This document shows, piece after piece, positions 154 through 62,533 of a stretch of 64,000 nucleotides of DNA. Position 1 is the first letter of the stretch. The number at the start of each line of letters is the position of its first letter. The stretch is from Siphonodentalium dalli. Taxonomy: Eukaryota > Mollusca > Scaphopoda > Gadilida > Siphonodentaliidae. The notes beneath the pieces were generated by a model that had not been told where the DNA came from, made no database searches, and saw only the letters and a list, made by a program, of their open reading frames with translations. The stretch lies in contig CP136065.1 of assembly GCA_032622095.1 (NCBI GenBank), forward strand, positions 247,441,474 to 247,505,473, given 5' to 3'. A program made the translations under genes and the position numbers.

Positions 154-414
154 TTGACCCTTCCATGACTGGAGCTTCCTGAAATTTTATGAACCCCTGT
201 GCCAATGCATTCTCTTATATATGTGAGTCTCCCATAGGGAGCCTTGCATATATAAGAGAATACATTGGCCTAACAATATTTACCATGACCTTGTAAGCCA
301 GTGCATTCTCTTATATAAGAGAGGCTCCGTATGGAATACTCACATATATAATAGAATGCACTGGCACTGGATATGTAATGCTGCACCAGAGCAGCTCCTG
401 TCATGAAAGATTAA
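154..414. mobile_element. Family B MITE copy (TTAA type, two hairpins)
   Basis: Runs from TTGACCCTTCCATGAC to TCATGAAAGATTAA, both ends slightly mutated. Contains two near-palindromes of about 69 bases (203-271 and 299-367) beginning GCCAATGCATTCTCTT or GCCAGTGCATTCTCTT, joined by an AT-rich spacer with a CTTGTAAGCCAG motif. No open frame. Length, TTAA ends and CCCTT termini suggest a piggyBac-type non-autonomous element. Confidence 0.75.
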
Positions 415-435
415 TGAAAACATTTTTAATAATGT

Positions 436-685
436 TTAACCCTTTGAGTGCCAGGGGCCGATATTATCGGCCCTAAACCTACACAATAAGTCTGTTAAAG
501 AATATAACAAAATATATTAAAATTGTAAAAAATTGTAAAAAAAAAAATTAAAACAAAATTGTTAAGCCAATGCATTCTCTTATATATGCGAGGCGACCTA
601 TGGTCGACTCGCATATATAAGAGAATGCATTGGCACAGGGTATATGGGTTAATACAAAAATCGGACCTGGCACTCAAAGGGTTAA
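436..685. mobile_element. Family C MITE copy (TTAACCCTTTGAGTGCC ends)
   Basis: Perfectly matched ends TTAACCCTTTGAGTGCCAGG and CCTGGCACTCAAAGGGTTAA flank a single shared 69-bp hairpin (565-634) and an inner GGGCCGATATTATCGGCCC palindrome near the left end. It lies 21 bases right of a family B copy. Confidence 0.8.
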
Positions 686-1279
686 ATCTATTATTAGTGG
701 TTGTATTGTATTACTATTTTGTTCAGGTCATAGATTCGTAGGAAACATTTCGCTAGAAACTAGAGTTAATTCATGTTCCGTCTTTTATTAGTGTTAAAAC
801 TTAATGATGGTGTTATTGTTTAAGAGTTATATTGTATTGTTATACATATCTTATAAATGTTAAAACATAGTGATGGCCTTACTGTTTTTGGAGGTTGTTA
901 TTCATATCTTTTTATATAATATGAATGACTGCTCGCTGTTAGATATTTGCTCATGAGAAAATTCTCAAGCAGTGTTCTGAGAGGCATCTGATACTTGACT
1001 ACATTTTACTATTAATACATGTGTGATGCACTATATCACCAAACATGAGCCTTTTCATTTAGTTCTTCCTTTCATGTCCTTTTTTGGACATCGTTGACCG
1101 AGGACAATTAAGGATAGTGTATCTCTTCTGGGCCACAATATTTCTGTGATTATTATGTATATGGCTTTAATTCTGTGATTATTATGGATATGGCTTTAAT
1201 TCAGCCCCCTTTGCTTATGCCAAATCCACTTATTCCGACAATTTCTAACAAATAGTTGTTAACTATTCTGTATGTCTAT
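686..1279. other. AT-rich interval without recognised genes
   Basis: Contains a 32-bp direct duplication (about 1141-1200; repeated TTCTGTGATTATTAT) and nothing else recognisable. Confidence 0.6.
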
Positions 1280-2970
1280 TCAATGTGATCCTACATGAAA
1301 AGCTAGCAATGAATGTGATCCAACATGAAAAGCTAGCAATGAATGTGATCCAACATGAAAAGCTAGCAATGAATGTGATCCAACATGAAAAGCTAGCAAT
1401 GAATGTGATCCAACATGAAAAGCTAGCAATGAATGTGATCCAACATGAAAAGCTAGCAATGAATGTGATCCTACGTGAAAAGCTAACAATGAATGTGATC
1501 CAACATGAAAAGCTAGCAATGAATGTGATCCTACGTGAAAAGCTAACAATGAATGTGATCCAACATGAAAAGCTAGCAATGAATGTGATCCTACGTGAAA
1601 AGCTAGCAATGAATGTGATCCAACATGAAAAGCTAGCAATGAATGTGATCCAACATGAAAAGCTAGCAATGAATGTGATCCAACATGAAAAGCTAGCAAT
1701 GAATGTGATCCAACATGAAAAGCTAGCAATGAATGTGATCCAACATGAAAAGCTAGCAATGAATGTGATCCAACATGAAAAGCTAGCAATGAATGTGATC
1801 CAACATGAAAAGCTAACAATGAATGTGATCCAACATGAAAAGCTAGCAATGAATGTGATCCAACATGAAAAGCTAACAATGAATGTGATCCAACATGAAA
1901 AGCTTGCAATGAATGTGATCCAACATGAAAAGCTAGCAATGAATGTGATCCAACATGAAAAGCTAGCAATGAATGTGATCCAACATGAAAAGCTAGCAAT
2001 GAATGTGATCCAACATGAAAAGCTAGCAATGAATGTGATCCAACATGAAAAGCTAGCAATGAATGTGATCCAACATGAAAAGCTAGCAATGAATGTGATC
2101 CAACATGAAAAGCTAGCAATGAATGTGATCCAACATGAAAAGCTAGCAATGAATGTGATCCAACATGAAAAGCTAGCAATGAATGTGATCCAACATGAAA
2201 AGCTAGCAATGAATGTGATCCAACATGAAAAGCTAGCAATGAATGTGATCCTACATGAAAAGCTAGCAATGAATGTGATCCTACATGAAAAGCTAGCAAT
2301 GAATGTGATCCAACATGAAAAGCTAGCAATGAATGTGATCCAACATGAAAAGCTAGCAATGAATGTGATCCAACATGAAAAGCTAGCAATGAATGTGATC
2401 CAACGTGAAAAGCTAGCAATGAATGTGATCCAACATGAAAAGCTAGCAATGAATGTGATCCAACATGAAAAGCTAGCAATGAATGTGATCCAACATGAAA
2501 AGCTAGCAATGAATGTGATCCAACATGAAAAGCTAGCAATGAATGTGATCCAACATGAAAAGCTAGCAATGAATGTGATCCAACATGAAAAGCTAGCAAT
2601 GAATGTGATCCTACATGAAAAGCTAGCAATGAATGTGATCCAACATGAAAAGCTAGCAATGAATGTGATCCAACATGAAAAGCTAGCAATGAATGTGATC
2701 CAACATGAAAAGCTAGCAATGAATGTGATCCAACATGAAAAGCTAGCAATGAATGTGATCCAACATGAAAAGCTAGCAATGAATGTGATCCTACATGAAA
2801 AGCTAGCAATGAATGTGATCCAACATGAAAAGCTAGCAATGAATGTGATCCAACATGAAAAGCTAGCAATGAATGTGATCCAACATGAAAAGCTAGCAAT
2901 GAATGTGATCCAACATGAAAAGCTAGCAATGAATGTGATCCAACGTGAAAAGCTAGCAATGAATGTGAAT
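1280..2970. repeat. 30-bp satellite, about 56 copies
   Basis: Head-to-tail units reading CATGAAAAGCTAGCAATGAA plus TGTGATCCAA. Most units are identical; variants are CTACATG, CTACGTG, AGCTAACAATG and one AGCTTGCAATG. Because 30 is divisible by three and the unit lacks stops, frames stay open on both strands for over 500 codons; these are not considered genes. Near the left end (1471-1610) variant and standard units alternate, giving a 60-bp dimer. Confidence 0.97.
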
Positions 2971-3013
2971 ATGTTTACACCAATTATTGGATATATTATT
3001 TGTCTATAAAGGC

Positions 3014-3181
3014 ATAATAAATAGACAGAACACAACGCGCATCTTAATCGAGAATCTTTTATCGAATGAGTTGCGGATGGCGCAAGGATATATTTTGCGA
3101 GAGCGTAGCTATGCGCCGTCCGCTACGAGTTCGATAAAAGATTCAAGATTATGATGCAAGTTGTGTTCTGTATTTATTCTA
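3014..3181. mobile_element. Foldback element I
   Basis: Long imperfect inverted repeat. The left arm reads AATAAATAGACAGAACACAA then GCATCTTAATCGAGAATC and TTTTATCGAA; the right arm is its reverse complement (TTCGATAAAAGATTC near 3130, GTTGTGTTCTGTATTTATT near 3160-3180). Short arms TGCGGATGGCGCA and TGCGCCGTCCGC lie inside. Probably a MITE; no clear target duplication. Confidence 0.6.
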
Positions 3182-3734: not shown

Positions 3735-4134
3735 TTAACCCTTTACCCAACAGAAGGGCCCTGTGCCAATGCATTCTCTTATATATGCGAGTCGACCATA
3801 GGTCGCCTCGCATATATAAGAGAATGCATTGGCTTAACACATTAAAAATTGTAAAATTGTTAAAGAATGTAAGAAAAAATGGTAAAAAGTGTTAAAAAAA
3901 GATTTTTTTTAGGCCAATGCATTCTCTTATATATGCGAGGCGACCTATGGTCGACTCGCATATATAAGAGAATGCATTGGCACAGGGCATAACTGTAACT
4001 ATCACAATGTGGTCAAGGAGCCGGTTCCAATGATATCCATATTTGTATGGTTCTATTGAGACAGACCGAAGATATTTTAGGCTGTTGAAGCTTTATTTGG
4101 CCGGTTTTGGCCGGTTTGTTGGGTAAAGGGTTAA
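3735..4134 (+). mobile_element. Family A MITE, full copy 1
   Basis: TTAACCCTTTACCCAACA at the left end and TGTTGGGTAAAGGGTTAA at the right end form perfect inverted termini with TTAA at both edges. Inside are two 69-bp near-palindromes (about 3765-3834 and 3913-3983) in opposite orientation, an AT-rich spacer, then a unique 3' arm with ACTATCACAATGTGGTCAAG and CTGTTGAAGCTTTATTTGGC. No coding capacity. TTAA target plus CCC terminus is the piggyBac signature; the class is inference. Confidence 0.88.
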
Positions 4135-4454: not shown

Positions 4455-4778
4455 TTAACCCTTCCATGACCGCAGCTTCCTGAAATTTTGTGAAAACCCT
4501 GTCCCAGAGGGAGCCTTGCATATATAAGAGAATACATTGGCCTAACAATATTTACCTTTACCTTGTAAGCCAGGACATTCTTTATATATGCGAGGCTCCC
4601 TATGAAAACCCTTTGCCAATGAATTCTATTATATATGCGAGTCTCCCATTGACCTTGTAAGCCAGGGCGTTCTCTAATATATGTGAGGCTCCCTATGGGA
4701 GACTCGCATATATAAGAGAATACACTGGCACATGATCTTTAATGCTGCACCAGCGCAGCTCCCGTCATGAAAGGGTTA
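4455..4778. mobile_element. Family B MITE, rearranged copy
   Basis: Ends TTAACCCTTCCATGAC and GTCATGAAAGGGTTAA. The interior holds partly duplicated and truncated hairpin arms (AGCCAGGACATTC, AGCCAGGGCGTTC), so it seems to have gained about 60 bases by internal duplication. The TTAA is intact at both edges. Confidence 0.7.
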
Positions 4779-4996
4779 AAGCATTGTATTTATGTATGCG
4801 AAAATAGGTAGAATTTTGATGTGGTTATGTTTCGCTATTATAATCATTATGAACTAAGAATTAGACTAGTTTTGTTTAACATAAAATAGTTCTCAATGCT
4901 GTTATTAAAGATAAATACCTTTCTACTCTGGCGACTGTGCAACTGAAAATAGATTGATGGAGGGGGTCTTTTTATTATTTCAAGAATTTGGTAATT

Positions 4997-5280
4997 CTAA
5001 CTTTTTCATGGCGGGGGCTGTGCTTGTGCAGCATTAAAGATCCTGTGCCAGTGCATTCTCTTATATATGCGAGTCTCCCATAGGGAGCCTCGCATATATA
5101 AGAGACTGCACTGGCTTACAAGGTCATGGTAATATTGTGAGGACAATGCATTATCTTATATATGCGAGGCTCCCTATGGGAGACAAAATATGTCATTTTG
5201 CCTTGCCATGGAGGGTGCATTGGCACAGGGTTTTCGCAAAATTTCAGCAAGCTCCAGACCTCCAGTCATGAAAGGTTTAA
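4997..5280. mobile_element. Family B MITE, degraded copy
   Basis: Orientation opposite to the copy at 154: begins CTAACTTTTTCATGGCGGGG and ends CAGTCATGAAAGGTTTAA. The first hairpin (about 5047-5113) is intact; the second is broken by an unrelated stretch near 5185-5210. Confidence 0.65.
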
Positions 5281-7011: not shown

Positions 7012-7018
7012 AAAGGTG

Positions 7019-7090
7019 GATATATAAAAGAATGCATAAGGCACAGGGTTTTCGCTAAATTTCAAGAAGCTCCAGTCAAGGAAGGGTTAA
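7019..7090. mobile_element. Family B MITE fragment
   Basis: Only the right end remains: hairpin half (TATATAAAAGAATGCA), GGCACAGGGTTTTCGCTAAA and GGAAGGGTTAA. Confidence 0.7.
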
Positions 7091-8960: not shown

Positions 8961-9191
8961 TTTGTTAGAGTTGTCAAGTAATTTGTTCGTTCATCACATT
9001 TTTTTCACTGTTTGGTTTCTGACCTGCCCATATTTAAATTTTGACCATGGGGGGTATCCCAACACCGATGGTGCAACTTGTTTTAATTTGAGTTATTGCC
9101 GTCTTTCCGTAGTATTCGCTCACATGTTCCGTGTTGGAAATATCCATGTCAATAATGTTAATTTTACTATATGCCCACTCTGTTTCCTAAC

Positions 9192-9408
9192 TACAGTAAT
9201 GCTCTAATTAATCGACCTCTTAACCAAAGCAGAATTATGGGTAACTTTTCAGGATTTAGTCGGAAATATGGCTTGTTGCCATTCATCGGAAAGCTCTCGG
9301 GGAGAGCTTTCCGATGAATGGCAACAAGCCATATTTCCGACTAAATCCTGAAAAGTTACCCATAATTCTGCTTTGGTTAAGAGGTCGATTAATTAGAGCA
9401 TTACTGTA
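9192..9408. mobile_element. Family D foldback MITE, perfect copy
   Basis: TA, CAGTAATGCTCTAATTAATC ... GATTAATTAGAGCATTACTG, TA. The two arms of about 105 bases look identical when one is reverse-complemented, meeting at CTCTCGGGGAGAG. The TA duplication and CAG terminus fit Tc1/mariner-pogo type elements (inference). Arm-specific words GACCTC and TTAACCAAAGC appear on both sides. Confidence 0.9.
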
Positions 9409-9749
9409 TGTTCTAATTGTCCACTATTGCGACAGTGCGGTCAGTAATTGATTTTGAGGTTCAGTTCGATTCGAAACTAAGATGCCGATTCGGTTTCAAG
9501 ATTTGATTTGATGTTAATTATAAGATTCGAAGGGCCCTAGTGGTGTGTTCATATGATGAGAAGACCCCCCCCCCCACACAGTTCCTGTTGCTTGCTATAT
9601 CCCCCTACCTATATTGTTCCATAACAAAAGAAACTTGTTTATGTTTATAAGCCTGTCGCCCAATCAGGCAGTACTTTTACATGATATTGAAGTCCATCTG
9701 TACTCTGAATCATATGGTCTTTTGCGGTGTTGATAACATCTGCATGTTT
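9409..9749. other. Interval without recognised genes
   Basis: Only a C-rich run (9567-9577) stands out; no gene or element recognised. Confidence 0.5.
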
Positions 9750-11139: not shown

Positions 11140-11475
11140 TGAAAAGCAATACCAGTGCACTGGTGCGTTATTAAAGACCATGTACAGTAATGCTCTAATT
11201 AATCGACCTCTTAACCAAAGCAGAATTATGGGTAACTTTTCAGGATTTAGTCGGAAATATGGCTTGTTGCAACAAGCCATAATTCCGACTAAATCCTGAA
11301 AAGTTACCCATAATTCTGCTTTGGTTAAGAAGTCGATTAATTAGAGCATTACTGTTCCTGTGCATTCTCTTATATATATGAGTCTCCAATTGGGAGCCTC
11401 ACCTATATATAAGACAATGCACTGGCACAGGGTTTTCTCAAAATTTCAGGAAGCTCCACTGAATGAAAGGGTTAA
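11140..11475. mobile_element. Family B MITE split by a family D insertion
   Basis: Left piece (about 11150-11184) has CTGGTGCGTTATTAAAGACC, matching the B word CTGGTGCAGCATTAAAGATC. The right piece resumes after the D element with CCTGTGCATTCTCTTATATA, one hairpin, GCACAGGGTTTTCTCAAAAT and GAAAGGGTTAA (TTAA 11472-11475). The second hairpin is absent. Confidence 0.6.
11183..11354. mobile_element. Family D foldback MITE inside family B
   Basis: TACAGTAATGCTCTAATTAA to GCATTACTG. The central part from CATTCATCGG is deleted, so arms are about 85 bases. The 3' flank reads TT instead of TA. Shares GACCTC and CCAAAGC with the 9.2-kb copy. Confidence 0.85.
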
Positions 11476-11812: not shown

Positions 11813-12057
11813 CAAGCCTTGAAATAGTGTGTCTGTCATTTGCAGAATGAGGTCCCCAGAGGGTGAATTTAGTGATGCTACCCCGCATAGCATCACCAAA
11901 TTCACCCTCTGGGGACCTCATTCTGCTTACACCTCACAGAATGAGGTCCCCAGAGGGTGAAGTTGATAATGCTAGCCCGCTATGCGGGGTAGCATCACTA
12001 AATTCACCCTCTGGGGACCTCATTCTGCAAATGACAGACACACTATTTCAAGGCTTG
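11813..12057. mobile_element. Family E2 MITE, double palindrome
   Basis: Ends CAAGCCTTGAAATAGTGTGT and ACACTATTTCAAGGCTTG; flanks TCTAGCAT and TCTAGCCT are a 7-of-8 target duplication. Two adjacent palindromes (11845-11935 and 11937-12029) each carry GAATGAGGTCCCCAGAGGG and its complement. Confidence 0.87.
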
Positions 12058-16395: not shown

Positions 16396-18925
16396 GACTC
16401 AAATGAGTATTTAATAGAGATTCAAGACAGTTAACAGAATGAGTATTTAATAGAGGGCAACACTGATTCAAGACAGTTAACAGAATGAGTATTTAATAGA
16501 GGGCAACACTGATTCAAGACAGTTAACAGAATGAGTATTTAATAGAGGGCAACACTGATTCAAGACAGTTAACAGAATGAGTATTTAATAGAGGGCAACA
16601 CTGATTCAAGACAGTTAACATAATGAGTATTTAATAGAGAGCAACACTGATTCAAGACAGTTAACAGAATGAGTATTTAATAGAGGGCAACACTGATTCA
16701 AGACAGTTAACATAATGAGTATTTAATAGAGAGCAATACTGATTCAAGAATGTTAACAGAATGAGTATTTAATAGAGGGCAATACTGATTCAAGAATGTT
16801 AACAGAATGAGTATTTAATAGAGGGCAACACTGATTCAAGACAGTTAACAGAATGAGTATTTAATAGAGGGCAACACTGATTCAAGACAGTTAACAGAAT
16901 GAGTATTTAATAGAGGGCAACACTGATTCAAGACAGTTAACAGAATGAGTATTTAATAGAGGGCAACACTGATTCAAGACAGTTAACAGAATGAGTATTT
17001 AATAGAGAGCAACACTGATTCAAGACAGTTAACAGAATGAGTATTTAATAGAGGGCAACACTGATTCAAGACAGTTAACAGAATGAGTATTTAATAGAGG
17101 GCAACACTGATTCAAGACAGTTAACAGAATGAGTATTTAATAGAGGGCAACACTGATTCAAGACAGTTAACAGAATGAGTATTTAATAGAGGGCAACACT
17201 GATTCAAGACAGTTAACAGAATGAGTATTTAATAGAGGGCAACACTGATTCAAGACAGTTAACAGAATGAGTATTTAATAGAGAGCAACACTGATTCAAG
17301 ACAGTTAACAGAATGAGTATTTAATAGAGGGCAACACTGATTCAAGACAGTTAACAGAATGAGTATTTAATAGAGGGCAACACTGATTCAAGACAGTTAA
17401 CAGAATGAGTATTTAATAGAGGGCAACACTGATTCAAGACAGTTAACAGAATGAGTATTTAATAGAGAGCAACACTGATTCAAGACAGTTAACAGAATGA
17501 GTATTTAATAGAGGGCAACACTGATTCAAGACAGTTAACAGAATGAGTATTTAATAGAGGGCAACACTGATTCAAGACAGTTAACAGAATGAGTATTTAA
17601 TAGAGGGCAACACTGATTCAAGACAGTTAACAGAATGAGTATTTAATAGAGGGCAACACTGATTCAAGACAGTTAACAGAATGAGTATTTAATAGAGGGC
17701 AACACTGATTCAAGACAGTTAACAGAATGAGTATTTAATAGAGAGCAACACTGATTCAAGACAGTTAACAGAATGAGTATTTAATAGAGGGCAACACTGA
17801 TTCAAGACAGTTAACAGAATGAGTATTTAATAGAGGGCAATACTGATTCAAGACAGTTAACAGAATGAGTATTTAATAGAGGGCAATACTGCTTCAAGAA
17901 TGTTAACAGAATGAGTATTTAATAGAGGGCAATACTGATTCAAGACAGTTAACAGAATGAGTATTTAATAGAGGGCAACACTGATTCAAGACAGTTAACA
18001 GAATGAGTATTTAATAGAGGGCAACACTGATGCAAGACAGTTAACAGAATGAGTATTTAATAGAGGGCAACACTGATTCAAGACAGTTAACAGAATGAGT
18101 ATTTAATAGAGGGCAACACTGATTCAAGACAGTTAACAGAATGAGTATTTAATAGAGGGCAACACTGATTCAAGACAGTTAACAGAATGAGTATTTAATA
18201 GAGAGCAACACTGATTCAAGACAGTTAACAGAATGAGTATTTAATAGAGGGCAACACTGATTCAAGACAGTTAACAGAATGAGTATTTAATAGAGGGCAA
18301 TACTGATTCAAGACAGTTAACATAATGAGTATTTAATAGAGGGCAATACTGATTCAAGACAGTTAACAGAATGAGTATTTAATAGAGGGCAATACTGATT
18401 TAAGACAGTTAACAGAATGAGTATTTAATAGAGGGCAATACTGATTCAAGAATGTTAACAGAATGAGTATTTAATAGAGGGCAATACTGCTTCAAGAATG
18501 TTAACAGAATGAGTATTTAATAGAGGGCAATACTGATTCAAGACAGTTAACAGAATGAGTATTTAATAGAGGGCAATACTGCTTCAAGAATGTTAACAGA
18601 ATGAGTATTTAATAGAGGGCAATACTGATTCAAGACAGTTAACAGAATGAGTATTTAATAGAGGGCAATACTGATTCAAGACAGTTAACAGAATGAGTAT
18701 TTAATAGAGGGCAATACTGATTCAAGACAGTTAACAGAATGAGTATTTAATAGAGGGCAATACTGATTCAAGACAGTTAACAGAATGAGTATTTAATAGA
18801 GGGCAATACTGATTCAAGACAGTTAACAGAATGAGTATTTAATAGAGGGCAATACTGATTCAAGACAGTTAACAGAATGAGTATTTAATAGAGGGCAATA
18901 CTGATTCAAGACAGCTAACAGAATG
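16396..18925. repeat. 46-bp satellite, about 55 copies
   Basis: Unit GATTCAAGACAGTTAACAGA + ATGAGTATTTAATAGAGGGC + AACACT. Variants: GAGAGC for GAGGGC, CAATACT for CAACACT, AGAATGTTAAC for AGACAGTTAAC, CATAATG for CAGAATG. CAATACT units cluster at 16.73-16.80 kb and dominate from 18.3 kb to the end. The unit contains in-frame stops, so no long frame results. Confidence 0.97.
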
Positions 18926-20604: not shown

Positions 20605-21120
20605 TTAACCCTTTCTATACTAAATGGATTCTCCCACCCAGTTATCAAAGTGTATGTTAGAATTGTCTATTATTCATTTAGAGGGATGTTGATGAAAAAA
20701 AAATCAGACGACAGACATATGAAAAGCTGATAGAAGCAAGCCTTGAAATAGGGTGTCTGTCATTTGCAGAATGAGGTCCCCAGAGGGTGAATTTAGTGAT
20801 GCTACCCCGCATAGCGGGCTAGCATCACCAAATTCACCCTCTGGGGACCTCATTCTGCTTACACTTCAGCAGAATGAGGTTCCCAGAGGATGAATTTGGT
20901 GATGCTAGCCCACTATGCGGGGTAGCATCACCAAATTCACCCTCTGGGAACCTCATTCTGCAAATGACAGACACTATTTCAAGGCTTGAATAGAAGTGAA
21001 GAAGCATTACTATTAATTGGTGGGAAATGTTCAGACCTATGGTCATTTGTTGAACTTATTATCTGAACATTTCCAAAGTGATAACTACTCGTCAATGAGT
21101 TTTTGTAAAGAAAAGGTTAA
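20605..21120 (+). mobile_element. Family K MITE, complete, interrupted by E2
   Basis: TTAACCCTTTCTATAC at left and GTAAAGAAAAGGTTAA at right form inverted ends with TTAA edges. K interior words (AGACGACAGACATATG; GTTGAACTTATTATCTGAAC) surround the E2 insertion at 20737-20988. This is the copy that defines the family. Confidence 0.78.
20737..20988. mobile_element. Family E2 MITE nested in K
   Basis: CAAGCCTTGAAATAGGGTGT ... ACACTATTTCAAGGCTTG with flanks GATAGAAG and AATAGAAG (7 of 8 match). Two palindromes of about 90 bases. K resumes immediately afterwards, so E2 is the younger insertion. Confidence 0.88.
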
Positions 21121-22769: not shown

Positions 22770-22923
22770 TTAACCCTTTCATGACTGGAGCTTCCTGAAG
22801 AGAATGCATTGGCCTAATAACATTTACCTTGATCTTGTAAGCCAGTGCATTCTCTTATATATGCGAGTCTCCCTATGGGAGTATAAGAAAATGCACTGGC
22901 ACATGATCTTTAATGCTGAAGCA
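22770..22923. mobile_element. Family B MITE, deleted copy
   Basis: Starts TTAACCCTTTCATGACTGG; the first hairpin is lost (CTGAAGAGAATGCATTGG junction), the second is half-deleted (ATGGGAGTATAAGAAAATGC). The right end is missing after GATCTTTAATGCTG. Confidence 0.7.
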
Positions 22924-24989: not shown

Positions 24990-25403
24990 TTAACCCTTTA
25001 CCCAACAGAACGGCCCTGTGCCAATGCATTCTCTTATATATGCGAGTCGACCATAGGTCGCCTCGCATATATAAGAGAATGCATTGGCTTAACACATATT
25101 AAAAATGATAAAATTGTCAAAGAATGTAGAAAATATTATAAGAAAAAATGGTAAAAAGTGTTAAAAACAAATTTGTTTTAGGCCAATGCATTCTCTTATA
25201 TATGCGAGGCGACCTATGGTCGACTCGCATATATAAGAGAATGCATTGGCACATGGCATAACTGTAACCATCACAATGTGGTCAATGAACCGGTTCCAAT
25301 AATATCCATATTTGTATGGTGTTATTGAGACAGACCGAAGATATTTTAGGCTGTTGAAGCTTTATTTGGGCGTTTTTGGCCGGTTTGTTGGGTAAAGGGT
25401 TAA
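24990..25403 (+). mobile_element. Family A MITE, full copy 2
   Basis: TTAACCCTTTACCCAACAG to GTTGGGTAAAGGGTTAA. Two hairpins (25020-25089, 25182-25251). Differs from copy 1 by an extra AGAAAATATTAT stretch in the spacer and CAATGAACC in the 3' arm. Confidence 0.88.
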
Positions 25404-25575: not shown

Positions 25576-25711
25576 TCAACCCTTTCATGAGGGGAGCTGA
25601 GCTGGTGCAGCATTAAAGATCATATGCCAGTGCGTTCTCTCATTTATAAGAGAATACATTGGTACAGGGTTTTCACAAAATTTCAGGAAGGTCCAGTCAT
25701 GGAATGGTTAA
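25576..25711. mobile_element. Family B MITE, mostly deleted
   Basis: TCAACCCTTTCATGAGGGGA to GTCATGGAATGGTTAA, with only one broken hairpin remaining (GTGCGTTCTCTCATTTATAA). Confidence 0.7.
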
Positions 25712-28482: not shown

Positions 28483-28782
28483 TACAGTAATGCCCTAAAT
28501 AATAGACTCCTTAACCGCAGCAGAATATGGGTAACTTTTCAGGATTTAGTCCGAAATATGGCTTGTTGCCATTCATCGGAAAGTTCTCAGTGAGAGCTTT
28601 CCGATGAAAGGCAACAAGCCATATTTCCGACTAAATCCTGAAAAGTTACACATAATTCTGCTGTGGTTAAGGAGTGAGAGCTTTCCGATGAATGGCAACA
28701 AGCCATATTTCCGACTAAATCCTGAAAAGTTACCTATAATTGTGTTGTGGTTAAGGAGTCGATTATTTAGGGCATTACTGTA
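28483..28782. mobile_element. Family D foldback MITE with duplicated right arm
   Basis: TA + CAGTAATGCCCTAAATAATA to GGGCATTACTG + TA. After the first right arm (ending GTGGTTAAGGAG) a second GAGAGCTTTCCGATGAATGG arm begins at 28677, so the element has one left and two right arms in tandem. Confidence 0.85.
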
Positions 28783-30057: not shown

Positions 30058-30165
30058 CGGCACCCCTGATTATACCACCACTATGCAGAGTACAGATATT
30101 GAAATACAGACAGAATACAAGGATTTATCTTAAAAAGGACTGCCCAAAATGCAGCCTAATCAATG

Positions 30166-30382
30166 TACAGTAATGACCTAAGTAATCGACGTCTTAACGA
30201 AAGCAGAATTATGGGTAACTTTTCAGGATTTAGTCGGAAATATGGCTTGTTGCCATTCATCGGAAAGCTCTCGCCGAGAGCTTTCCGATGAATGGCAACA
30301 AGCCATATTTCCGACTAAATCCTGAAAAGTTACCCATAATTCTGCTTTCGTTAAGACGTCGATTACTTAGGGCATTACTGTA
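30166..30382. mobile_element. Family D foldback MITE, near-perfect
   Basis: TA + CAGTAATGACCTAAGTAATC to GATTACTTAGGGCATTACTG + TA. Arms of about 106 bases differ at one position (GACC versus GCCC complement). Copy-specific words GACGTC and TTAACGAAAGC occur on both arms. Confidence 0.92.
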
Positions 30383-30659
30383 CACCATGCAGGTAGTGAT
30401 TCTCCTGGCTGCCAGTCTGATGACGTCACAGAACATTCAAGTTTAAACAACACAAATATTTTTCCGCGAAATCTCAGATGTCTTTCGGCACCAAGGAACA
30501 CAAAAATGCGATAAACTACTAAACTTCCATTTTTGAAACATCAACTTTAAGGTTGCATCACAATGATAATATGCATTTATAGTTTACTCAATTCACAATT
30601 CAAATAGGCGTTCATACTTCACGGTAATGCACCAGCAATACACAATACAAGTTTATGTT

Positions 30660-31200
30660 GATATAATACAGCAACGAGACGAGTTCCTATTGTTGTTCTC
30701 GGTTATGGCATCCTTCAGGCAATATGTGTGCAATCTACATATTAACCCTTTACCCAACAAAGCGGCCAAAAACGCCCAAATAGAGCTTCAACAGCCTAAA
30801 ATATCTTCAGTCTGTCTCAATAACACCATACAAATATGGATATCATTGGAACCGGTTCATTGACCACATTGTGATGGTTACAGTTATGCCCTGTGCCAAT
30901 GCATTCTCTTATATATGCGAGTCGAAGAGAATGCATTGGCCTAAAAAATATTCTTTAACAATTTTATAATGTTTTCTTACATTTTTTTTACATTTTTTAT
31001 AATATTTTTCTACATTTTTTGACAATTTTATCATTTATAATCTGTGTTAAGCCAATGCATTCTCTTATATATGCGAGGCGACCTATGGTCGACTCGCATA
31101 TATAAGAGAATGCATTGGCACAGGGCCATTCTGTTGGGTAAAGGGTTAACCGTTAAGTAGATCTTTGACTATCACAAACTTATTACAAGGTTTGTGACTT
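30660..31200 (+). repeat. Duplicated segment with filled insertion site
   Basis: Sister of 27690-27850. Matching flanks ATCTACATATTAA and TTAACCGTTAAGTAGATC enclose the family A copy, showing that TTAA is duplicated on insertion. Confidence 0.8.
30742..31149 (-). mobile_element. Family A MITE, copy 3
   Basis: TTAACCCTTTACCCAACAAA to TGTTGGGTAAAGGGTTAA, reverse orientation. The hairpin nearest the left arm is broken (GCGAGTCGAAGAGAATGC deletion), and the spacer carries an extra ACATTTTTTTTACATTTTT stretch. The other hairpin (31053-31122) is intact. Confidence 0.88.
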
Positions 31201-34007: not shown

Positions 34008-34229
34008 TACAGTAAAGCCCTAAATAATCGACTCCTTAACCACAGCAGAATTATGGGTTACTTTTCAGGATTTAGTCGGAAATATGGCTTGTTGCCATTC
34101 ATCGGAAAGCTCTCCCTGAGAGCTTTCCAATGAATGGCAACAAGCCATATTTCCGACTAAATCCTGAACTGAAAAGTTACCCATAATTCTGCTGTGGTTA
34201 AGGAGTCGATTTCTTAGGGCATTACTGTA
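34008..34229. mobile_element. Family D foldback MITE
   Basis: TA + CAGTAAAGCCCTAAATAATC to TTAGGGCATTACTG + TA. Inserted in a donor-bearing repeat (GGTAGG left, CTATAAGAGACACC right). A five-base duplication CTGAA lies in the right arm. Confidence 0.9.
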
Positions 34230-37087: not shown

Positions 37088-37487
37088 TTAACCCTTTACC
37101 CAACAAACCGGCCAAAACCGGCCAAATAAAGCTTCAACAGCCTAAAATATCTTCGGTCTGTCTCAATAGAACCATACAAATATGGATATCATTGGAACCG
37201 GCTCCTTGACCACATTGTGATGGTTACAGTTATGCCCTGTGCCAATGCATTCTCTTATATATGCGAGTCGACCATAGGTCGCCTCGCATATATAAGAGAA
37301 TGCATTGGCCTAAAAAAAATCTTTTTTTAACACTTTTTACCATTTTTTCTTACATTCTTTAACAATTTTATAATTTTTAATGTGTTAAGCCAATGCATTC
37401 TCTTATATATGCGAGGCGACCTATGGTCGACTCGCATATATAAGAGAATGCATTGGCACAGGGCCCTTCTGTTGGGTAAAGGGTTAA
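37088..37487 (-). mobile_element. Family A MITE, copy 4, inside element G
   Basis: TTAACCCTTTACCCAACAAA to TGTTGGGTAAAGGGTTAA; hairpins at about 37239-37308 and 37389-37458 are intact. It lies 52 bases right of the satellite end. Confidence 0.9.
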
Positions 37488-38576: not shown

Positions 38577-38976
38577 TTAACCCTTTACCCAACAAACCGG
38601 CCAAAACCGGCCAAATAAAGCTTCAACAGACTAAAATATCTTCGGTCTGTCTCAATAGAACCATACAAATATGGATATCATTGGAACCGGCTCCTTGACC
38701 ACATTGTGATAGTTACAGTTATACCCTGTGCCAATGCATTCTCTTATATATGCGAGTCGACCATAGGTCGCCTCGCATATATAAGAGAATGCATTGGCCT
38801 AAAAAAAATCTTTTTTCAACACTTTTTACCATTTTTTCTTACATTCTTTAACAATTTTATAATTTTTAATGTGTTAAGCCAATGCATTCTCTTATATATG
38901 CGAGGCGACCTATGGTCGACACGCATATATAAGAGAATGCATTGGCACAGGGCCCTTCTGTTGGGTAAAGGGTTAA
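38577..38976 (-). mobile_element. Family A MITE, copy 5
   Basis: Same orientation and nearly the same sequence as copy 4; both hairpins present (second has GTCGACACGC for GTCGACTCGC). Confidence 0.9.
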
Positions 38977-41352: not shown

Positions 41353-41605
41353 CAAGCCTTGAAATAGTGTGTCTGTCATTTGCAGAATGAGGTCCCCAGA
41401 GGGTGAATTTAGTGATGCTACCCCGCATAATGGGCTAGCATCACCAAATTCACCCTCTGGGGACCTCATTCTGCTTACACCTCAGCAGAATGAGGTTCCC
41501 AGAGGGTGAATTTGGTGATGCTAGCCCGCTATGTGGGTAGCATCACTAAATTCACCCTCTGGGGACCTCATTCTGCAAATGACAGACACACTATTTCAAG
41601 GCTTG
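41353..41605. mobile_element. Family E2 MITE with perfect 8-bp duplication
   Basis: CAAGCCTTGAAATAGTGTGT ... ACACTATTTCAAGGCTTG, flanked by CTTGGTCG on both sides (41345-41352, 41606-41613). Two palindromes, the second with GCCCGCTATGTGGGTAGC at its centre. Confidence 0.92.
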
Positions 41606-42888: not shown

Positions 42889-43151
42889 TTAAACCTTTCA
42901 TGACGGGAGCTGCGCTGATGCAGCATTAAAGATCCTGTGCCAATGAATTCTCTTATATATGTGAGTCTCCCGTATGGAGCCTCATATATATAAGAGAATA
43001 TTTTTGCTTACAAAGTGAAGGTAAATATTGTTAGGCCAATGCATTATCTTATATATACGACGCTCCCTATGGGAGACCCTCATATATAAGAGAATGCAAT
43101 GGCATAGGGTTTTCGCAAAATTTCAGGAAGATCCAGTTTTGAAAGGGTTAA
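42889..43151. mobile_element. Family B MITE, complete
   Basis: TTAAACCTTTCATGACGGGA to TTTTGAAAGGGTTAA. Two hairpins, both with several mismatches (ATATTTTTGCTTAC, ATATACGACGC). Confidence 0.78.
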
Positions 43152-44060: not shown

Positions 44061-44544
44061 TTAACCCTTTCAGTGCCAGGTCCGATTTTTGTATCAACCC
44101 ATATACCCTGTGCCTATGCATTCTCTTATATATGTGAGTCAACCATAGTTCCGCGCGATCGCCTCGCATATAAGAGAATGCATTGGCCTAACAATTTTTC
44201 ATCATTTGTTATTATTTTTTACAATTTTTTACAATTTTAATAATTTTTTCTTATATTATTTAACAGACTTATTTTGTAGCTTTAGTGCCAGGGAATCTAA
44301 CGTTTTTCATGGGCATCAAAATTATTACTATGAATACTTGGTGATAGTTTTGAGTTATAACATGCCCCTAAGGTTTTATCCAGTTTGTTATTAAATTTGC
44401 TATAGCATGCTTAAGCATACCCAAAAAAAATTCAACCCAAAAAGATCTAAAAAAAGAAGAGGATTTTTTTTATTTTTTTAGGGCCGATTTTACAGACTGT
44501 AAATTAGGGCCGATGAGATCGGCCCCTGGCACTGAAAGGGTTAA
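44061..44544 (+). mobile_element. Family C MITE, long copy
   Basis: TTAACCCTTTCAGTGCCAGG to CCTGGCACTGAAAGGGTTAA, perfect ends. One hairpin (about 44110-44190, with an inserted TTCCGCGCGATC), then an A/T-rich region and GGGCCGATGAGATCGGCCCC near the right end. About 230 bases longer than the copy at 436. Confidence 0.82.
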
Positions 44545-44816: not shown

Positions 44817-45057
44817 TTGACCATTTCATGATGTTCTGGTGCAGCATTAAAGATCCTGTGCCAGTGTATTCTCTTATAAACACAAGTCTCCCAAAGGGAG
44901 CCTCGCATATATAAGAGAAGGCCAAGGTAAATATTGTTAGGCCAATGTATTCTCTTATATATGTGAGGCTCCCTATGGGAGACTCACGTATATAAGAGAA
45001 TGCCATGGCACAGGGTTTTCGCAAAATGTCTGAAAGCTCCCATCATAGAAGGATTAA
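44817..45057. mobile_element. Family B MITE, mutated
   Basis: TTGACCATTTCATGATG to ATCATAGAAGGATTAA. First hairpin broken (CTTATAAACACAAGTC, AGAGAAGGCCAAGG), second intact (44938-45008). Confidence 0.72.
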
Positions 45058-45159: not shown

Positions 45160-45781
45160 TGGTAAAATGCTAATGCATTCTCTTATTACCATAGGGAACC
45201 TCACATATATAAGAGAATACATTCGCCTAACAATATTTACCTTGACCCAGTAAACCAGTGCATTCTCTTAAATATGGGAGGCTCGCATATATGGAGCTCT
45301 GTGGTCCAGTGGTTAGTGTGTCAGACTTGCCTTCGCTATTAACACAGTGGGACAAGTTCACAGCCCGCCGCTGATCTAATGTGAGTTTCACACAGCAGTG
45401 GCTTTGGCCGAATTGATAGATGTGCAATTGTCGGATTGTCCGTTGTTCATATTTCGTGCCAAGTTGTGACCCTTGTGCAGGGTCGTTTGTACTGTGTCTG
45501 TTTCTCACCACCCATGCGTTGAAAAGGGTATCTACCTGATTATGAGCAGTGAAAGATATATATTGTCAGTAGGCTGTACCTCCCGCTGTCCCCGGGGAGC
45601 AGTAGATGGTTACTGAGTATTCAGGTTCATCAGGGTAATAATTGTCCCATGCATTGGAACGGAGTACCGGTAGAACGCGTGAAATAAATGGATCGATTAT
45701 TATTAATATTTATATAAGAGAATGCACTGGCACAGGATCTTTAATGCTGCACCAGCTCAGCTCATGTCATGACAGGGTTAA
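45160..45781. mobile_element. Family B MITE split by a SINE
   Basis: First hairpin remnant at 45168-45232, second hairpin left arm to CTCGCATATAT (45292), then the SINE, then the rest of the arm from TATATAAGAGAATGCACTGG (45711) to GTCATGACAGGGTTAA. Left terminus missing. Confidence 0.8.
45293..45710 (+). mobile_element. tRNA-headed SINE, full-length copy
   Basis: Starts GGAGCTCTGTGGTCCAGTGG, with an A-box-like TGGTCCAGTGG and a weaker box-B-like AAGTTCACAGCCCG about 45 bases on; a conserved body (GTGACCCTTGTGCAGGG, CACCACCCATGCG, GGGGAGCAGTAGATGGTTAC, TCATCAGGGTAATAATTG) and an ATT-rich tail (GATCGATTATTATTAATATT). The TATAT on both sides fits a short target duplication. About 418 bases. 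Non-autonomous; needs a LINE partner. Confidence 0.85.
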
Positions 45782-45888: not shown

Positions 45889-46655
45889 TCATGTAAAGGT
45901 CATGTAAAGGTCATGTAAAGGTTATTATTACTAAAGTATCTATCCGCTCCTCTACTTATACTATGAGAGTCAATGTAAAGGTTATTATTACTAAAGTATC
46001 TATCCGCTCCTCTACTTATACTATGAGAGTCAATGTAAAGGTTATTATTACTAAAGTATCTATCCGCTCCTCTACTTATACTATGAGAGTCAATGTAAAG
46101 GTTATTATTACTAAAGTATCTATCCGCTCCTCTACTTATACTATGAGAGTCAATGTAAAGGTTATTATTACTAAAGTATCTATCCGCTCCTCTACTTATA
46201 CTATGAGAGTCAATGTAAAGGTTATTATTACTAAAGTATCTATCCGCTCCTCTACTTATACTATGAGAGTCAATGTAAAGGTTATTATTACTAAAGTATC
46301 TATCCGCTCCTCTACTTATACTATGAGAGTCAATGTAAAGATTATTATTTCTAAAGTATCTACCCGCTCCTCTACTTATACTATGAGAGTCAATGTAAAG
46401 GTTATTATTACTAAAGTATCTATCCGCTCCTCTACTTATACTATGAGAGTCAATGTAAAGGTTATTATTACTAAAGTATCTATCCGCTCCTCTACTTATA
46501 CTATGAGAGTCAATGTAAAGGTTATTATTACTAAAGTATCTATCCGCTCCTCTACTTATACTATGAGAGTCAATGAAAGCAAACAGTCATATAAAGGTTA
46601 TTATTACTAAAGTATCTATCCGCTCCTCTACTTATACTATGAGAGTCAATGAAAT
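45889..46655. repeat. 60-bp satellite, about 12 copies
   Basis: Unit CTATGAGAGTCAATGTAAAG + GTTATTATTACTAAAGTATC + TATCCGCTCCTCTACTTATA. Nearly all units are identical; 46321-46380 carries four changes. The last unit contains CAAACAGTCAT, matching the sequence at the array's left edge. The 215-codon frame is a by-product. Confidence 0.96.
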
Positions 46656-49165: not shown

Positions 49166-49420
49166 TTGACACTTTCATGACTGGATCTTCCTGAAATATT
49201 GCGAAAAACCATGTGCCAATGCATTCTCTTATATATACAAGTCTCCCATAGGGAGCCTCGCATATAAAAGAGAATACATTGGCCTAACAATATTTACCTT
49301 GACCTTGTAAGCTGTGCATTCTCATATATGTTTGAGGCTCCCTATTTTATATATAAGAGAATGCACTGGCACAGGGTCTTTAAAGCTGCATCAACACGGT
49401 TCCCGTCATGAAAGGGCTAA
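49166..49420. mobile_element. Family B MITE
   Basis: TTGACACTTTCATGACTGG to CCGTCATGAAAGGGCTAA; both TTAA edges mutated. First hairpin good, second shortened. Confidence 0.75.
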
Positions 49421-50102: not shown

Positions 50103-50268
50103 TTAACCCTTTCATGACGGGAACTGTGCCAATGTTTTCTTCATTATATATGAGTCTCCCATAGGGAGCCCTTCACATGTACGGGAATGCACTGGCTTAT
50201 AAAGTCAATGTAATGCCAATGTATTCTATGGGAGACTCACATATGCAAGAGAATGAATTGGTACAGGG
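50103..50268. mobile_element. Family B MITE, truncated, abutting A copy 6
   Basis: TTAACCCTTTCATGACGGGA onward with two eroded hairpins, ending GGTACAGGG where the TTAA of the A element starts. The right end of B is missing. Confidence 0.7.
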
Positions 50269-50660
50269 TTAACCCTTTACCCAACAAACCGGCCAAAACC
50301 TGCCAAATAAAGCTTCAACAGCCTAAAATATCTTCGGTCTGTCTCAATAAAACCATACAAATATGGATATCATTGGAACCGGCTCATTGACCACATTGTG
50401 ATGGTTACAGTTATGCCCTGTGCCAATGCATTCTCTTATATATGCGAGTCGACCATAGGTCGCCTCGCATATATAAGAGAATGCATTGGCCTAAAATAAA
50501 TCTTTTTTTAACACTTTTTACCATTTTTTCTTACATTCTTTAACAATTTTTAATGTGTTAAGCCAATGCATTCTCTTATATATGCGAGGCGACCTATGGT
50601 CGACTCGCATATATAAGAGAATGCATTGGCACAGGGCCCTTCTGTTGGGTACAGGCTTAA
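50269..50660 (-). mobile_element. Family A MITE, copy 6, mutated right end
   Basis: TTAACCCTTTACCCAACAAA at left; right end GTTGGGTACAGGCTTAA (two changes in the terminal repeat). Both hairpins intact (50416-50490, 50562-50632). Confidence 0.87.
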
Positions 50661-53127: not shown

Positions 53128-53390
53128 TTAACCCCTTCATGACTGGAGCTTCCTGAAATTTAGCGAAAACCCTGTGCCAATGCATTCTCTTATATATGTG
53201 AGTCTCCCATAGGGAGCCTTGCATATATAAGAGAATACATTGGCCCAACAATATTTATCTTGACTTTGTAAGCCAGCACATTCTCTTATATATGCAAGGC
53301 TCCCTATGGGAAACTTGCATATATAAGAGAATGCACTGGCACAAGATCTTTAATGCTGCACCAGCGCTGCTCCCTTCATTAAAGGGTTAA
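53128..53390. mobile_element. Family B MITE, complete
   Basis: TTAACCCCTTCATGACTGG to TTCATTAAAGGGTTAA, both hairpins near-perfect (53176-53244, 53271-53340). Confidence 0.82.
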
Positions 53391-53493
53391 ACTCTATATA
53401 ATGCAGTCTAAAATGCCTGAAGAAGCTTAAATATTCTCTGGATTAATTAATTCAGATGTGGTGATACCTAGAGGGATCTGCCGGTTAGGCTTA

Positions 53494-53615
53494 TAAACCT
53501 TCCATGACTGGAGCTTCTAGAAATTTTGTGAAAACCTTGTGCCAATATATAAGAGAATGCACTGACACATTGTCTTTAATACTGCACCAGTACAGCTCCC
53601 TTCAGAAAATGGTTC
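53494..53615. mobile_element. Family B MITE, internally deleted
   Basis: ACCTTCCATGACTGGAGCTT to CAGCTCCCTTCAGAAAATGG; only GCCAATATATAAGAGAATGC remains of the hairpins. Confidence 0.7.
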
Positions 53616-56134: not shown

Positions 56135-56404
56135 TTAACCCTTACATGACTGGAGCTCCCTGAAATTTTGCGAAAACCCTGTTCCAATGCATTCTCTTAT
56201 ATATGCGAGTCTCCCATAGGGAGCCTCACATATATAAGAGAATACATTGGCCTAACAATATTTACCTTATCTTTGTAAGCCAGTGTATTCTCTTATATAT
56301 ACGAGGCTCCCTATAGGAGACGCGCATATATAAGAAAATGCACGGGCACAGGATCTTTATTGCTGCATCAGTGCACCTCCCGTCTGGAAAGTCATGAAAG
56401 TAAA
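56135..56404. mobile_element. Family B MITE, complete but mutated right end
   Basis: TTAACCCTTACATGACTGG to GTCATGAAAGTAAA; the last TTAA is lost. Two good hairpins. Confidence 0.78.
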
Positions 56405-58416: not shown

Positions 58417-58634
58417 TACGGTAATGCCCTAAATAATCGACTCCTTAACCACAGCAGAATTATTGGAAATTTTTCAGGATTTAGTCGGAAATATGGCTTT
58501 TGTTGCCATTCATCGGAAAGCTCTCACTGAGAGCTTTTCGATGAATGGCAACAAGCCATATTTTCGACTAAATCCTGAAACATTACCCATAATTCTGCTG
58601 TGGTTAAGGAGTCAATATTTAGGGCATTACTGTA
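58417..58634. mobile_element. Family D foldback MITE inside a tandem repeat
   Basis: TA + CGGTAATGCCCTAAATAATC to GGGCATTACTG + TA. The neighbouring unit near 58330 (AAGTAGTACACGGAAAAAGA) is the same site without insertion. Confidence 0.9.
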
Positions 58635-58779
58635 CATGGAAAATGACGGTAGGTATAGGATATCGTTATTTCTCTTGAACATGGTCTATACTTTTTGAGC
58701 TATTGAATATTATATGGAAAAATGTTTGTATGTACAAGATAACATTGCGTCTGTTAAAGATTGTCTATCTTTTTTGAGC

Positions 58780-60699: not shown

Positions 60700-60975
60700 A
60701 AAAACTGAAATACTAGATTCACTTAAAATCAACTTACATTACCTAATTTCAACTGCGCTACCTGAGTTGAACTTAATCAACTAAAATTAACTAAAATCAC
60801 TTAAAATCAACTGAAAATACCTAATTTAAATCGAAATCACCTAATGTTAACTGAAATCAAATGATATAATCTAAAATTAACTTTAATAACTTAAAATCTA
60901 ATTAAAATACCTTAATTCAATAAAATCCCATAACATTAACTGAAATCAACTGAAATAATATAAAATTAACTTAAC
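60700..60975. repeat. Simple low-complexity 'AAATCAACT' region
   Basis: Irregular repetition of CTGAAATCA, CTAAAATTAACT and CTTAAAATCAACT. Similar wording (AAATACCTAAATCCAACTG) reappears at 62537-62575 in front of the BTB exon. Confidence 0.75.
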
Positions 60976-61137
60976 CCTGGATTATATATGTAAAATGCCC
61001 CATTTCCCATGGTTGTATGATAAAATGGCAATGTTTCATATGATATCTAGACCACTTTACAATATAGAATCAAACACATATAAGACTAGGTTATTATTAG
61101 GTTATACTGAATTAGAAAACACTTAAGATTTATCGTA

Positions 61138-61531
61138 TTAACCCTTTACCCAACAGAAGGGCCCTGTGCCAATGCATTCTCTTATATATGCGAGTCGACC
61201 ATAGGTCGCCTCGCATATATAAGAGAATGCATTGGCTTAACACATTAAAAATTATAAAATTGTTAAAGAATGTAAGAAAAAATGGTAAAAAGTGTTAAAA
61301 AAAGATTTTTTTTAGGCTAATGCATTCTCTTATATATGCGAGGCGACCTATGGTCGACTCGCATAAGAGAATGCATTGGCACTGGGCTAACTGTAACTAT
61401 CACAATGTGGTCAAGGAGCCGGTTCCAATGATATCCATATTTGTATGGTTCTATTGAGACAGACCCAAGATAATTTAGGCTGTTGAAGCTTTATTTGGCC
61501 GGTTTTGGCCGGTTTGTTGGTAAAGGGTTAA
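61138..61531 (+). mobile_element. Family A MITE, copy 7
   Basis: TTAACCCTTTACCCAACAG to TTTGTTGGTAAAGGGTTAA (one G lost in the right terminal repeat). The second hairpin lost TATATA in one arm (CTCGCATAAGAGAATG). Confidence 0.88.
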
Positions 61532-62030
61532 CGAGTCTATGTACACTCACTCACAGTGGTTGAGCTTGCTATGTCATGCCCACCAACAGTTATCCCCAGG
61601 TTTCCCTATGCAAAGGAACATTATATTTATTGACACCATATGTTTTCAGCAATTACGTCAGATGTTTCAGACAGCATCAGCTTTTTATTTAAAAAATAGG
61701 ACTCTGTATATATAAATGAGGACATTCAGTCGTTATCCCGATAAAAGTTATCACCAGGTTTCCTATCCTAAGCAACAGTAGATTTATTGACAGTAAATTT
61801 ATTATTAATTTATTTAGTGGCAATTATGTCAAATGTTTCATATGGCATCAGCTGGTAAGTTTGTCAAATTTTAATTAAAACAAGTGCTAGATATCTTATA
61901 TAAATGAGATATACATGTATTAAATAGATGTCCTTGCTATGTCATGCTCGCCAACAGTTATCAGAAGGTTTCCTTATGCAACCCTGAAATCTATATTTAA
62001 CAAGCCACATTCCCTTTTTACATGACGTAT
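61532..62030. repeat. Degenerate tandem repeat, about 165-180 bp
   Basis: GCTATGTCATGC(C/T)C(A/G)CCAACAGT, TATC..AGGTTTCC and CAATTA(C/T)GTCA(G/A)ATGTTTCA recur at 61570, 61740 and 61935. Contains one GTAAGT at 61856. Confidence 0.65.
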
Positions 62031-62128
62031 GTCGGCTGGTTGGTTTTCCGGCCAGCTGGGTTATAGCCATTTATGCGTTGGCCAGAAAACCGGCCAATTT
62101 TCCTGCCAACCGGGTTCAAAGGTTTTAA
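62031..62128. repeat. Short interval with CCGGCCA inverted words
   Basis: GGCTGGTTGGTTTTCCGGCC and GGCCAGAAAACCGGCCAA form loose inverted repeats. Function unknown. Confidence 0.45.
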
Positions 62129-62133
62129 TTCAC

Positions 62134-62533
62134 TTAACCCTTTACCCAACAGAACGGCCCTGTGCCAATGCATTCTCTTATATATGCGAGTCGACCATAG
62201 GTCGCCTTGCATATATAAGAGAATGCATTGGCTTAACACATTAAAAATTATAAAATTGTTAAAGAATGTAAGAAAAAATGGTAAAAAGTGTTAATTTTTT
62301 TTTTTTTTTAGGCCAATGCATTCTCTTATATATGCGAGGCGACCTATGGTCGACTCGCATATATAAGAGAATGCATTGGCACAGGGCATAACTGTAACTA
62401 TCACAATGTGGTCAAGGAGCCGGTTCCAATGATATCCATATTTGTATGGTTTTATTGAGACAGACCGAAGATATTTTAGGCTGTTGAAGCTTTATTTGGC
62501 CGGTTTTGGCCGGTTTGTTGGGTAAAGGGTTAA
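62134..62533 (+). mobile_element. Family A MITE, copy 8, next to the BTB exon
   Basis: TTAACCCTTTACCCAACAG to TGTTGGGTAAAGGGTTAA with two hairpins (62163-62233, 62312-62382). It ends 64 bases before the acceptor, so if the exon model is right this copy sits in the intron just before the branch-point region. Confidence 0.9.

Follow-up and report, generated by a model that had tools for sequence, protein, structure and literature searches.

A palindromic core shared by miniature transposon families with different ends in the scaphopod Siphonodentalium dalli

Conserved interiors and terminal palindromes in described elements

Classes of miniature inverted-repeat transposable elements (MITEs) rest on the ends of the elements. 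Elements in which an interior is conserved between different ends are already known, and the closest precedent that we found is the CMITEs of Acropora corals (Wang et al. 2010, PMC2872659). As described there, CMITEs are TTAA MITEs of about 100 bp, with ~1600 copies estimated in A. millepora, in which different terminal inverted repeats (TIRs) surround a conserved interior of ~75 bp. Most of these TIRs read CCCTTT..., tandem arrays are known, one family has TIRs identical to those of the piggyBac-like AmiPB1, and the authors propose that the interior is important for transposition. No further literature under the CMITE name appeared among the 15 of 28 matches listed. Here we describe a constant interior between differing ends in the scaphopod Siphonodentalium dalli. 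The analysis concerns a stretch of 64,000 nucleotides of assembly GCA_032622095.1 (contig CP136065.1, positions 247,441,474 to 247,505,473; hereafter the window), where a 69-bp near-palindrome, the hairpin, recurs within three families of TTAA elements, A, B and C.

The transposons piggyBac and piggyBat target TTAA, a site that Kolobok elements likewise use. In piggyBac and at one piggyBat end, subterminal palindromes are described as bound by the cysteine-rich domains of the transposase (PMC11707139). In the same account these palindromes measure 14-19 bp and belong to autonomous elements, and subterminal sites can alter activity, in piggyBat by lowering it. The S. dalli hairpins similarly lie near element ends, but they are 69 bp long, and families A, B and C were matched to no such transposase at the 39 piggyBac loci inspected. 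Since the end palindromes of piggyBac and piggyBat are bound by transposase, a binding role for the hairpin is reasonable. MADE1-type MITEs consist of a near-perfect short palindrome, which there is the entire element, whereas here it forms an interior cassette.

Like CMITEs, the S. dalli families have different TIRs around an interior that is conserved between families, a likeness drawn from the descriptions. Compared with CMITEs as described, what is new is a self-palindromic interior, paired and provided with a spacer in A, B and a fourth family, D; the half core of C; a family (D) without TTAA flanks; and the scale, with 91,612 exact A ends alone.

Anatomy and abundance of the hairpin-bearing families

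The hairpin is real and not a chance feature. Its 20-base start has 73 matches in the window at up to three mismatches, where 0.03 are expected, and full 69-bp hairpins number 28, all of them within A, B and C, in agreement with the roughly two dozen copies announced in the initial annotation. Each is a near-palindrome, with 32 pairs in the consensus. The genome (2.23 Gb, 9 contigs) contains 312,227 exact 20-base arms, or ~0.14 per kb, compared with 35 in the 64 kb of the window, where such arms are thus denser than the genome average. A genome sample of 19 stretches of 5 kb (95 kb, out of 120 planned 10-kb positions) held 10 arms at up to four mismatches, confined to three of the 19 stretches. 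A 27-base hairpin arm was absent from the viral and prokaryote contigs searched, and a literature search for these sequences gave no match. Beyond the piggyBat account, the literature on palindromic or mosaic MITEs that was searched offered no useful parallel. At C1:735542-926260, large tandem arrays contain hairpin-bearing units with a period of ~14.56 kb that gives way to one of ~11.17 kb.

In A, B and D the core runs from CCTGTG through the 69-bp hairpin, CTAA and an AT-rich spacer to the reverse-complement hairpin and CACAGG, with CTAA or TTAA on the inner hairpin sides before the spacer. The core start is CCTGTGCC in every family consensus. In A and D the two hairpin consensuses are exact reverse complements of one another, which makes the core a palindrome of palindromes. 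C holds half a core with a single hairpin, 51 bp from one end, and is broken off inside the spacer. The opposite orientation of the A hairpins and the single hairpin of C had both been noted initially and are borne out.

Family A starts TTAACCCTTTACCCAACA, and in its 400-bp consensus the hairpins lie 153 bp from one end and 30 bp from the other. Family B starts TTAACCCTTTCATGAC and has a 263-bp consensus whose hairpins are set in from the ends by 48 and 50 bp; family C starts TTAACCCTTTGAGTGCC and has a consensus of 248 bp, with longer forms up to 484 bp. All three are too small to encode a transposase. Their consensus ends share TTAACCCTTT, fitting the TIR start CC[C/T]T (motif from PMC2872659). 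TTAA borders both ends of 8 of 8 A copies, 2 of 2 C copies and 3 of 5 B copies checked, and the remaining two B copies have flanks TTGA/TAAT and TTGA/CTAA. The three different termini reported for the window are thus present, and in TTAA duplication, CC[C/T]T TIR and small size A, B and C resemble MITEs of the piggyBac type. The elements extend from position 154, where the first B element starts, to 62533, where the last A element stops (Table 1). At 50103-50660 an A element lies against a B remnant at a TTAA, a nested insertion and one possible start of mosaics.

Three hairpin-bearing families are an undercount for the genome. Nine places with outer arms unlike those of A to C were fetched, and all nine belong to one family, D, which starts TGTGACCCGCC and consists of the arm TGTGACCCGCCATATCAAATCCAGTCGTAAGTCGGGATTTTTTTA, the core and an inverted copy of the arm. 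TTAA adjoins none of the 17 D ends, and TA is found on both sides in three of the six distinct two-ended copies. A search of the window at up to five mismatches gave no D end; exact D ends number 19,162 genome-wide. D copies, and some C-ended ones, contain a second and imperfect hairpin (GAGCCCC...GTGTCGTCTGCTCATG...GGGGCTC or similar forms), which in D is placed inside the pair of 69-bp hairpins (loci L087-L091, L093, L080, L081, L070 and L073). At L091 a relative of it stands alone, flanked by TTAACCCA.

Genome-wide counts of hairpin flanks, in line with a check suggested initially, gave one predominant immediate flank pattern and at least four kinds of outer arms. The 4-bp pattern YTRD, which covers both hairpin sides, adjoins 295,285 of the 312,227 exact arms (94.6%). 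Exact CTGT-outer arms number 148,664, and five short flank labels, which rest on few bases and are approximate, account for 131,135 of them (88.2%): A-left 38,059, A-right 43,147, C 17,081, B-left 9,054 and D 23,794. Because one mutation in the extra bases causes a miss, these counts only limit the room for additional large families or solo cores. The right hairpin of B has its own variant, CCAGTGC, with 8,162 exact occurrences. Among the 100 A-end matches listed, 34 paired elements have both A ends exact, some of them units of one array; 31 of these 34 carry the exact outer hairpin arm and the other three carry other arms.

Proposed origin and role of the shared core

We consider it an even bet that A to D are non-autonomous MITEs with a portable subterminal core that is probably needed in cis for amplification. 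Non-homologous end replacement would have brought the module together with different ends, either through template switching in gap repair or through nested insertion followed by mobilisation as a composite. Copies with palindromes near their ends would amplify better. The palindromes might bind a dimeric protein (the C-terminal domain of the transposase or a host factor) or fold, and the ends would thereby be paired. Cutting would fall to different transposases, probably of piggyBac type for A to C and another for D. If the core does raise transposition, the high copy numbers of families with unrelated ends, from thousands to tens of thousands, would be easier to understand, and the young copies would make the question posed by CMITEs, why an interior is kept while the TIR changes, directly testable.

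The sharing of the core is most evident among A, C and D. Their hairpin consensuses are identical over 69 bases; for most C and D copies the way of choosing them fixed 20 of these bases and left the other 49 free. B differs at seven. The spacers of A and D align with a score of 71, compared with 41 for the best of 1000 dinucleotide shuffles, and those of C and D with 80 (best shuffle 43). None of 13 cross-family arm pairs beats 1000 dinucleotide shuffles; against simpler shuffles, the C and D arms share a 10-base T-rich run (p 0.05). Two C-ended copies, L080 and L081, contain a D-type interior and the second imperfect hairpin, as judged by eye with the far ends outside the view. The same hairpins, alignable spacers and unalignable arms support the proposal that A, C and D share their core by capture or end replacement. 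The proposal does not extend to B. Its spacer aligns with the spacers of no other family, so B may represent either old divergence or an older capture.

Conservation was compared in 11 A copies not chosen by hairpin, leaving aside four that were (L002, L007, L085 and L086) and a shortened copy (L051). Substitutions affect 7 of 1491 hairpin cells, 49 of 1616 arm cells (20 singletons, 29 shared) and 33 of 858 spacer cells (25 singletons, 8 shared), and also 2 of 395 cells in the outer 18 bp (2 singletons, 0 shared), which were selected for. Hairpins and arms differ in variable sites (Fisher p 0.0008) and in singletons (p 0.03). Three of the 11 copies have arms off consensus at 10-14 of 147 sites (7-10%) and hairpin substitutions of 0, 0 and 1. 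Such low hairpin variation is what selection for mobility in source copies would give, though homogenising processes may also account for it. Most C and D copies had been chosen for an exact outer hairpin arm, and L096 for its D ends. The comparison was confined to the 49 unselected bases in C and in the first D hairpin; the second D hairpin was partly selected too. L078 (a repeat of L077) was excluded from the C counts and L089 (an inverted copy of L088) from the D test. In six D copies, changes number 3/246 and 3/414 in the hairpins, 6/228 and 9/306 in the arms and 114/1144 in the spacer; the differences between the first hairpin and the arms are not significant.

Pairing was assessed in 69 hairpins, 33 of them distinct, against shuffles and slid controls. 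Paired cells amount to 93.3%, compared with 89.7% in shuffles. Changes on both sides of a pair affect 40 cells, where the shuffle mean is 18.7 and the slid controls give 3 to 23. The palindrome has survived the divergence between B and A, C and D, with few independent events. A cis function of the hairpin, in line with the functional unit suggested initially, is plausible rather than proven, given that substitutions in A hairpins are as rare as in the TIR and that pairing was kept between B and the others.

Several results weigh against a core needed in cis. A genome search yielded 128 matches to piggyBac transposases, many with open frames. Of these, 39 loci were viewed with flanks of 1.5-1.6 kb, and none has a hairpin inside the element itself, whose ends often fall beyond such flanks. 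Low variation could also be explained by a short time since spread. Gap cells in A are more numerous in hairpins (27, from deletions in two copies) than in arms (1) or spacer (11), and one of the three A copies with diverged arms carries a hairpin deletion. A C-to-T change at hairpin column 45 (a CpG) occurs in two A copies and one C copy once all hairpins are turned the same way, and since this variant recurs, the finding that A hairpins share no variant is valid only with the two hairpins kept apart. In 18 C copies (unselected hairpin part 18/840, near arm 12/678, spacer 128/1445, far arm 104/642) the hairpin is better conserved than the spacer and the far arm, not than the near arm. In B, with six window copies compared and the rest too decayed or broken for end patterns, the hairpin has no advantage (hairpin 66/790, arm 53/586, spacer 8/161). 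The initial claim of better conservation in the hairpin than elsewhere in each element hence holds for substitutions in A, and fails for gaps in A, for the near arm of C and for B. Pairs with double changes number six, an ordinary value reached in 124 of 500 shuffles (slid controls 3 to 9), and most of the double-change signal comes from two neighbouring pairs that represent one old fixed difference between B and the rest. The spacers of A and C align only just above the shuffles (48 against a best of 47). About 12% of exact outer arms fall outside all five flank patterns, and 20 places fetched with the C pattern comprised 16 C-ended copies, two A copies (L085 and L086) and two of neither kind (L070 and L073). 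The latter are copies of one another in which the core adjoins sequence of no known arm. The replacement of ends is itself a step that was not observed.

A piggyBac-type transposase with matching ends, for which the initial annotation proposed a search, was not found among the 39 of 128 loci inspected. No exact A, B or C end belongs to a piggyBac element at these loci. The terminus nearest to that of C, TTAACACGTTGAGTGCC in L009, L016 and L021, agrees at 12 of 16 scored positions, with no exact match. At L061 a B copy lies beside the piggyBac element, and L064 contains one arm-like match with five mismatches. Many piggyBac transposase copies with long open frames occur across L009-L038, and piggyBac may have been recently active in the S. 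dalli genome. The CC[C/T]T tips favour piggyBac over Kolobok as the likely type.

The core may instead have no function and have spread recently by recombination among abundant copies, with its conserved look due to youth or to homogenisation by gene conversion, a possibility that we regard as unlikely. Palindromes are break-prone and recombine often. The identical hairpin consensuses of A, C and D, the mosaic copies L080 and L081, the hairpin-carrying tandem arrays on C1, the variant common to two A copies and a C copy and the occurrence of hairpin deletions are all consistent with such a spread. The three arm-diverged A copies argue against it; none has more than one hairpin substitution, and mere youth of the hairpin relative to these copies does not explain this. 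Gene conversion from one hairpin to the other within an element was considered and rejected, as a variant common to both hairpins was found in none of the A elements and there is thus no sign of such conversion.

Simple divergence of A, B, C and D from one ancestor, with only tips and hairpins kept by constraint, seems improbable. The tip TTAACCCTTT common to A, B and C and the CCTGTG boundary in all families fit a single ancestor, and the moderate, partly compensated differences of B make this origin possible for B versus the rest. D has neither the shared tip nor TTAA at any of its 17 ends. In A and D the spacers vary more than the arms and yet align across families, which makes simple divergence hard to invoke. 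From these alignments we reject pure divergence for A, C and D, where spacers align and outer arms do not, and not for B; a single ancestral flank explaining all families, the outcome that would have undone the idea of capture, is not what A, C and D display.

Very improbable, in our view, is a role at the RNA level, in which hairpin transcripts would fold into double-stranded RNA that yields or decoys small RNAs. One A copy, treated as a single strand with DNA parameters, folds far beyond shuffled sequence (z -24.9), and this extreme folding of the core is what speaks for such a role. Rfam gave no match in the window or in four loci, L081, L087 and L091 among them, and conservation in A tracks the TIR, as it would for a cis DNA site. 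The least probable explanation, that the 69-bp hairpin or the CCTGTG-to-CACAGG core inserted itself into unrelated elements, could draw on core starts CCTGTGCC within six distinct outer arms and on the cores of L070 and L073 beside sequence of no known arm, but we reject a free mobile hairpin, which the initial annotation had entertained, since its immediate flanks are too constant (94.6% of exact arms in one flank pattern, 88% of outer arms in the five known), the spacer travels along, C holds a half core broken inside the spacer, and no consistent target duplication was seen by eye beside the core in A or B.

The same layout in other elements and neighbouring features

An unrelated palindrome of ~100 bp (CAGAATGAGGTCCCCAGAGGGTGAATTTAGTGATGC...) occurs in the window, paired inside CAAGCCT-ended elements of 245 to 538 bp. 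These resemble hAT elements in their 8-bp target duplications, which are present at 0-1 mismatch in five of seven elements and absent in two. Among three variants of the CAAGCCT-type ends, duplications accompany CAAGCCTTGAAATAG and CAAGCCTGCAAATA, and none accompany CAAGCCTGAGTTTAG. This suggests that the layout rather than any one sequence may be favoured in this genome. One hairpin in TTAA and non-TTAA families (A, B and D, half in C) and an unrelated hairpin in hAT-like elements are the grounds for a broader and doubtful idea, that the order end, palindrome, spacer, inverted palindrome, end could be a general amplification device for any transposase, read by a host protein or as a DNA fold rather than by the transposase.

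Table 1. Hairpin-bearing elements and other palindromic repeats (window positions unless a locus is named; TSD, target-site duplication)
Feature	Position	Strand	Remarks
B element	154..415	+	two hairpins 201-269, 297-365; TSD decayed TTGA/TAAT
C element	436..685	+	one hairpin 566-634; TTAA both sides
A element	3735..4134	-	hairpins 3765-3833, 3913-3981
B element	4455..4779	+	hairpins rearranged
B element	4997..5280	-	hairpin 5047-5115 and a broken one
B fragment	7022..7090	.	decayed single hairpin arm and end
B fragment	11356..11475	.	one hairpin
B fragment	22770..22900	+	left end and shortened hairpins
A element	24990..25403	-	hairpins 25020-25088, 25182-25250; differences: arms 10/147 sites, hairpins 0/138
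B deletion derivative	25576..25711	.	
A element	30742..31149	+	hairpin 1 internally deleted, hairpin 2 31051-31119
A element	37088..37487	+	hairpins 37241-37309, 37389-37457
A element	38577..38976	+	hairpins 38730-38798, 38878-38946
B element	42889..43151	-	hairpins 42939-43007, 43035-43103
C element, long form	44061..44544	-	one enlarged hairpin 44112-44187
B element	44817..45057	-	degenerate ends (read by eye); hairpins 44860-44928, 44941-45009
B fragment	45169..45273	.	only hairpin arms
B fragment	45712..45781	.	single hairpin arm and end
B element	49166..49420	+	hairpin 49215-49283 and a shortened one
B remnant	50103..50268	+	adjoins A copy at 50269
A element	50269..50660	+	hairpins 50422-50490, 50562-50630
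B element	53128..53390	+	hairpins 53176-53244, 53272-53340
B fragment	53493..53566	+	left end and hairpin arm
B element	56135..56347	+	end set at last hairpin base; hairpins 56183-56251, 56279-56347
A element	61138..61531	-	hairpin 61168-61236 and a shortened one
A element	62134..62533	-	hairpins 62164-62232, 62312-62380
hAT-like MITE	11813-12057		paired ~100-bp palindrome
hAT-like MITE	20737-20988		paired ~100-bp palindrome
hAT-like MITE	41353-41605		paired ~100-bp palindrome
hAT-like MITE	L036:3038-3291		paired ~100-bp palindrome
hAT-like MITE	L064:3091-3536		paired ~100-bp palindrome
GGCTTGTTGCCATTCATCGGAAAGCTCTC-core repeat	9184-9416		
GGCTTGTTGCCATTCATCGGAAAGCTCTC-core repeat	28524-28656		
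GGCTTGTTGCCATTCATCGGAAAGCTCTC-core repeat	30140-30408		
GGCTTGTTGCCATTCATCGGAAAGCTCTC-core repeat	34058-34174		
GGCTTGTTGCCATTCATCGGAAAGCTCTC-core repeat	58500-58554		
Putative GGCTTGTTGCCATTCATCGGAAAGCTCTC-core relative	11173-11366		kinship is a guess

Another long palindromic repeat, with the core GGCTTGTTGCCATTCATCGGAAAGCTCTC, has stems of up to 134 bp. Long minisatellite arrays with units of 30, 46, 47 and 60 bp lie at 1282-2968, 16419-18925, 34957-37034 and 45913-46579, the first and last of which explain repetitive open frames. BTB and BACK domains are encoded in a 432-codon open frame at 62586-63884, which lies 53 bp past the last A element.

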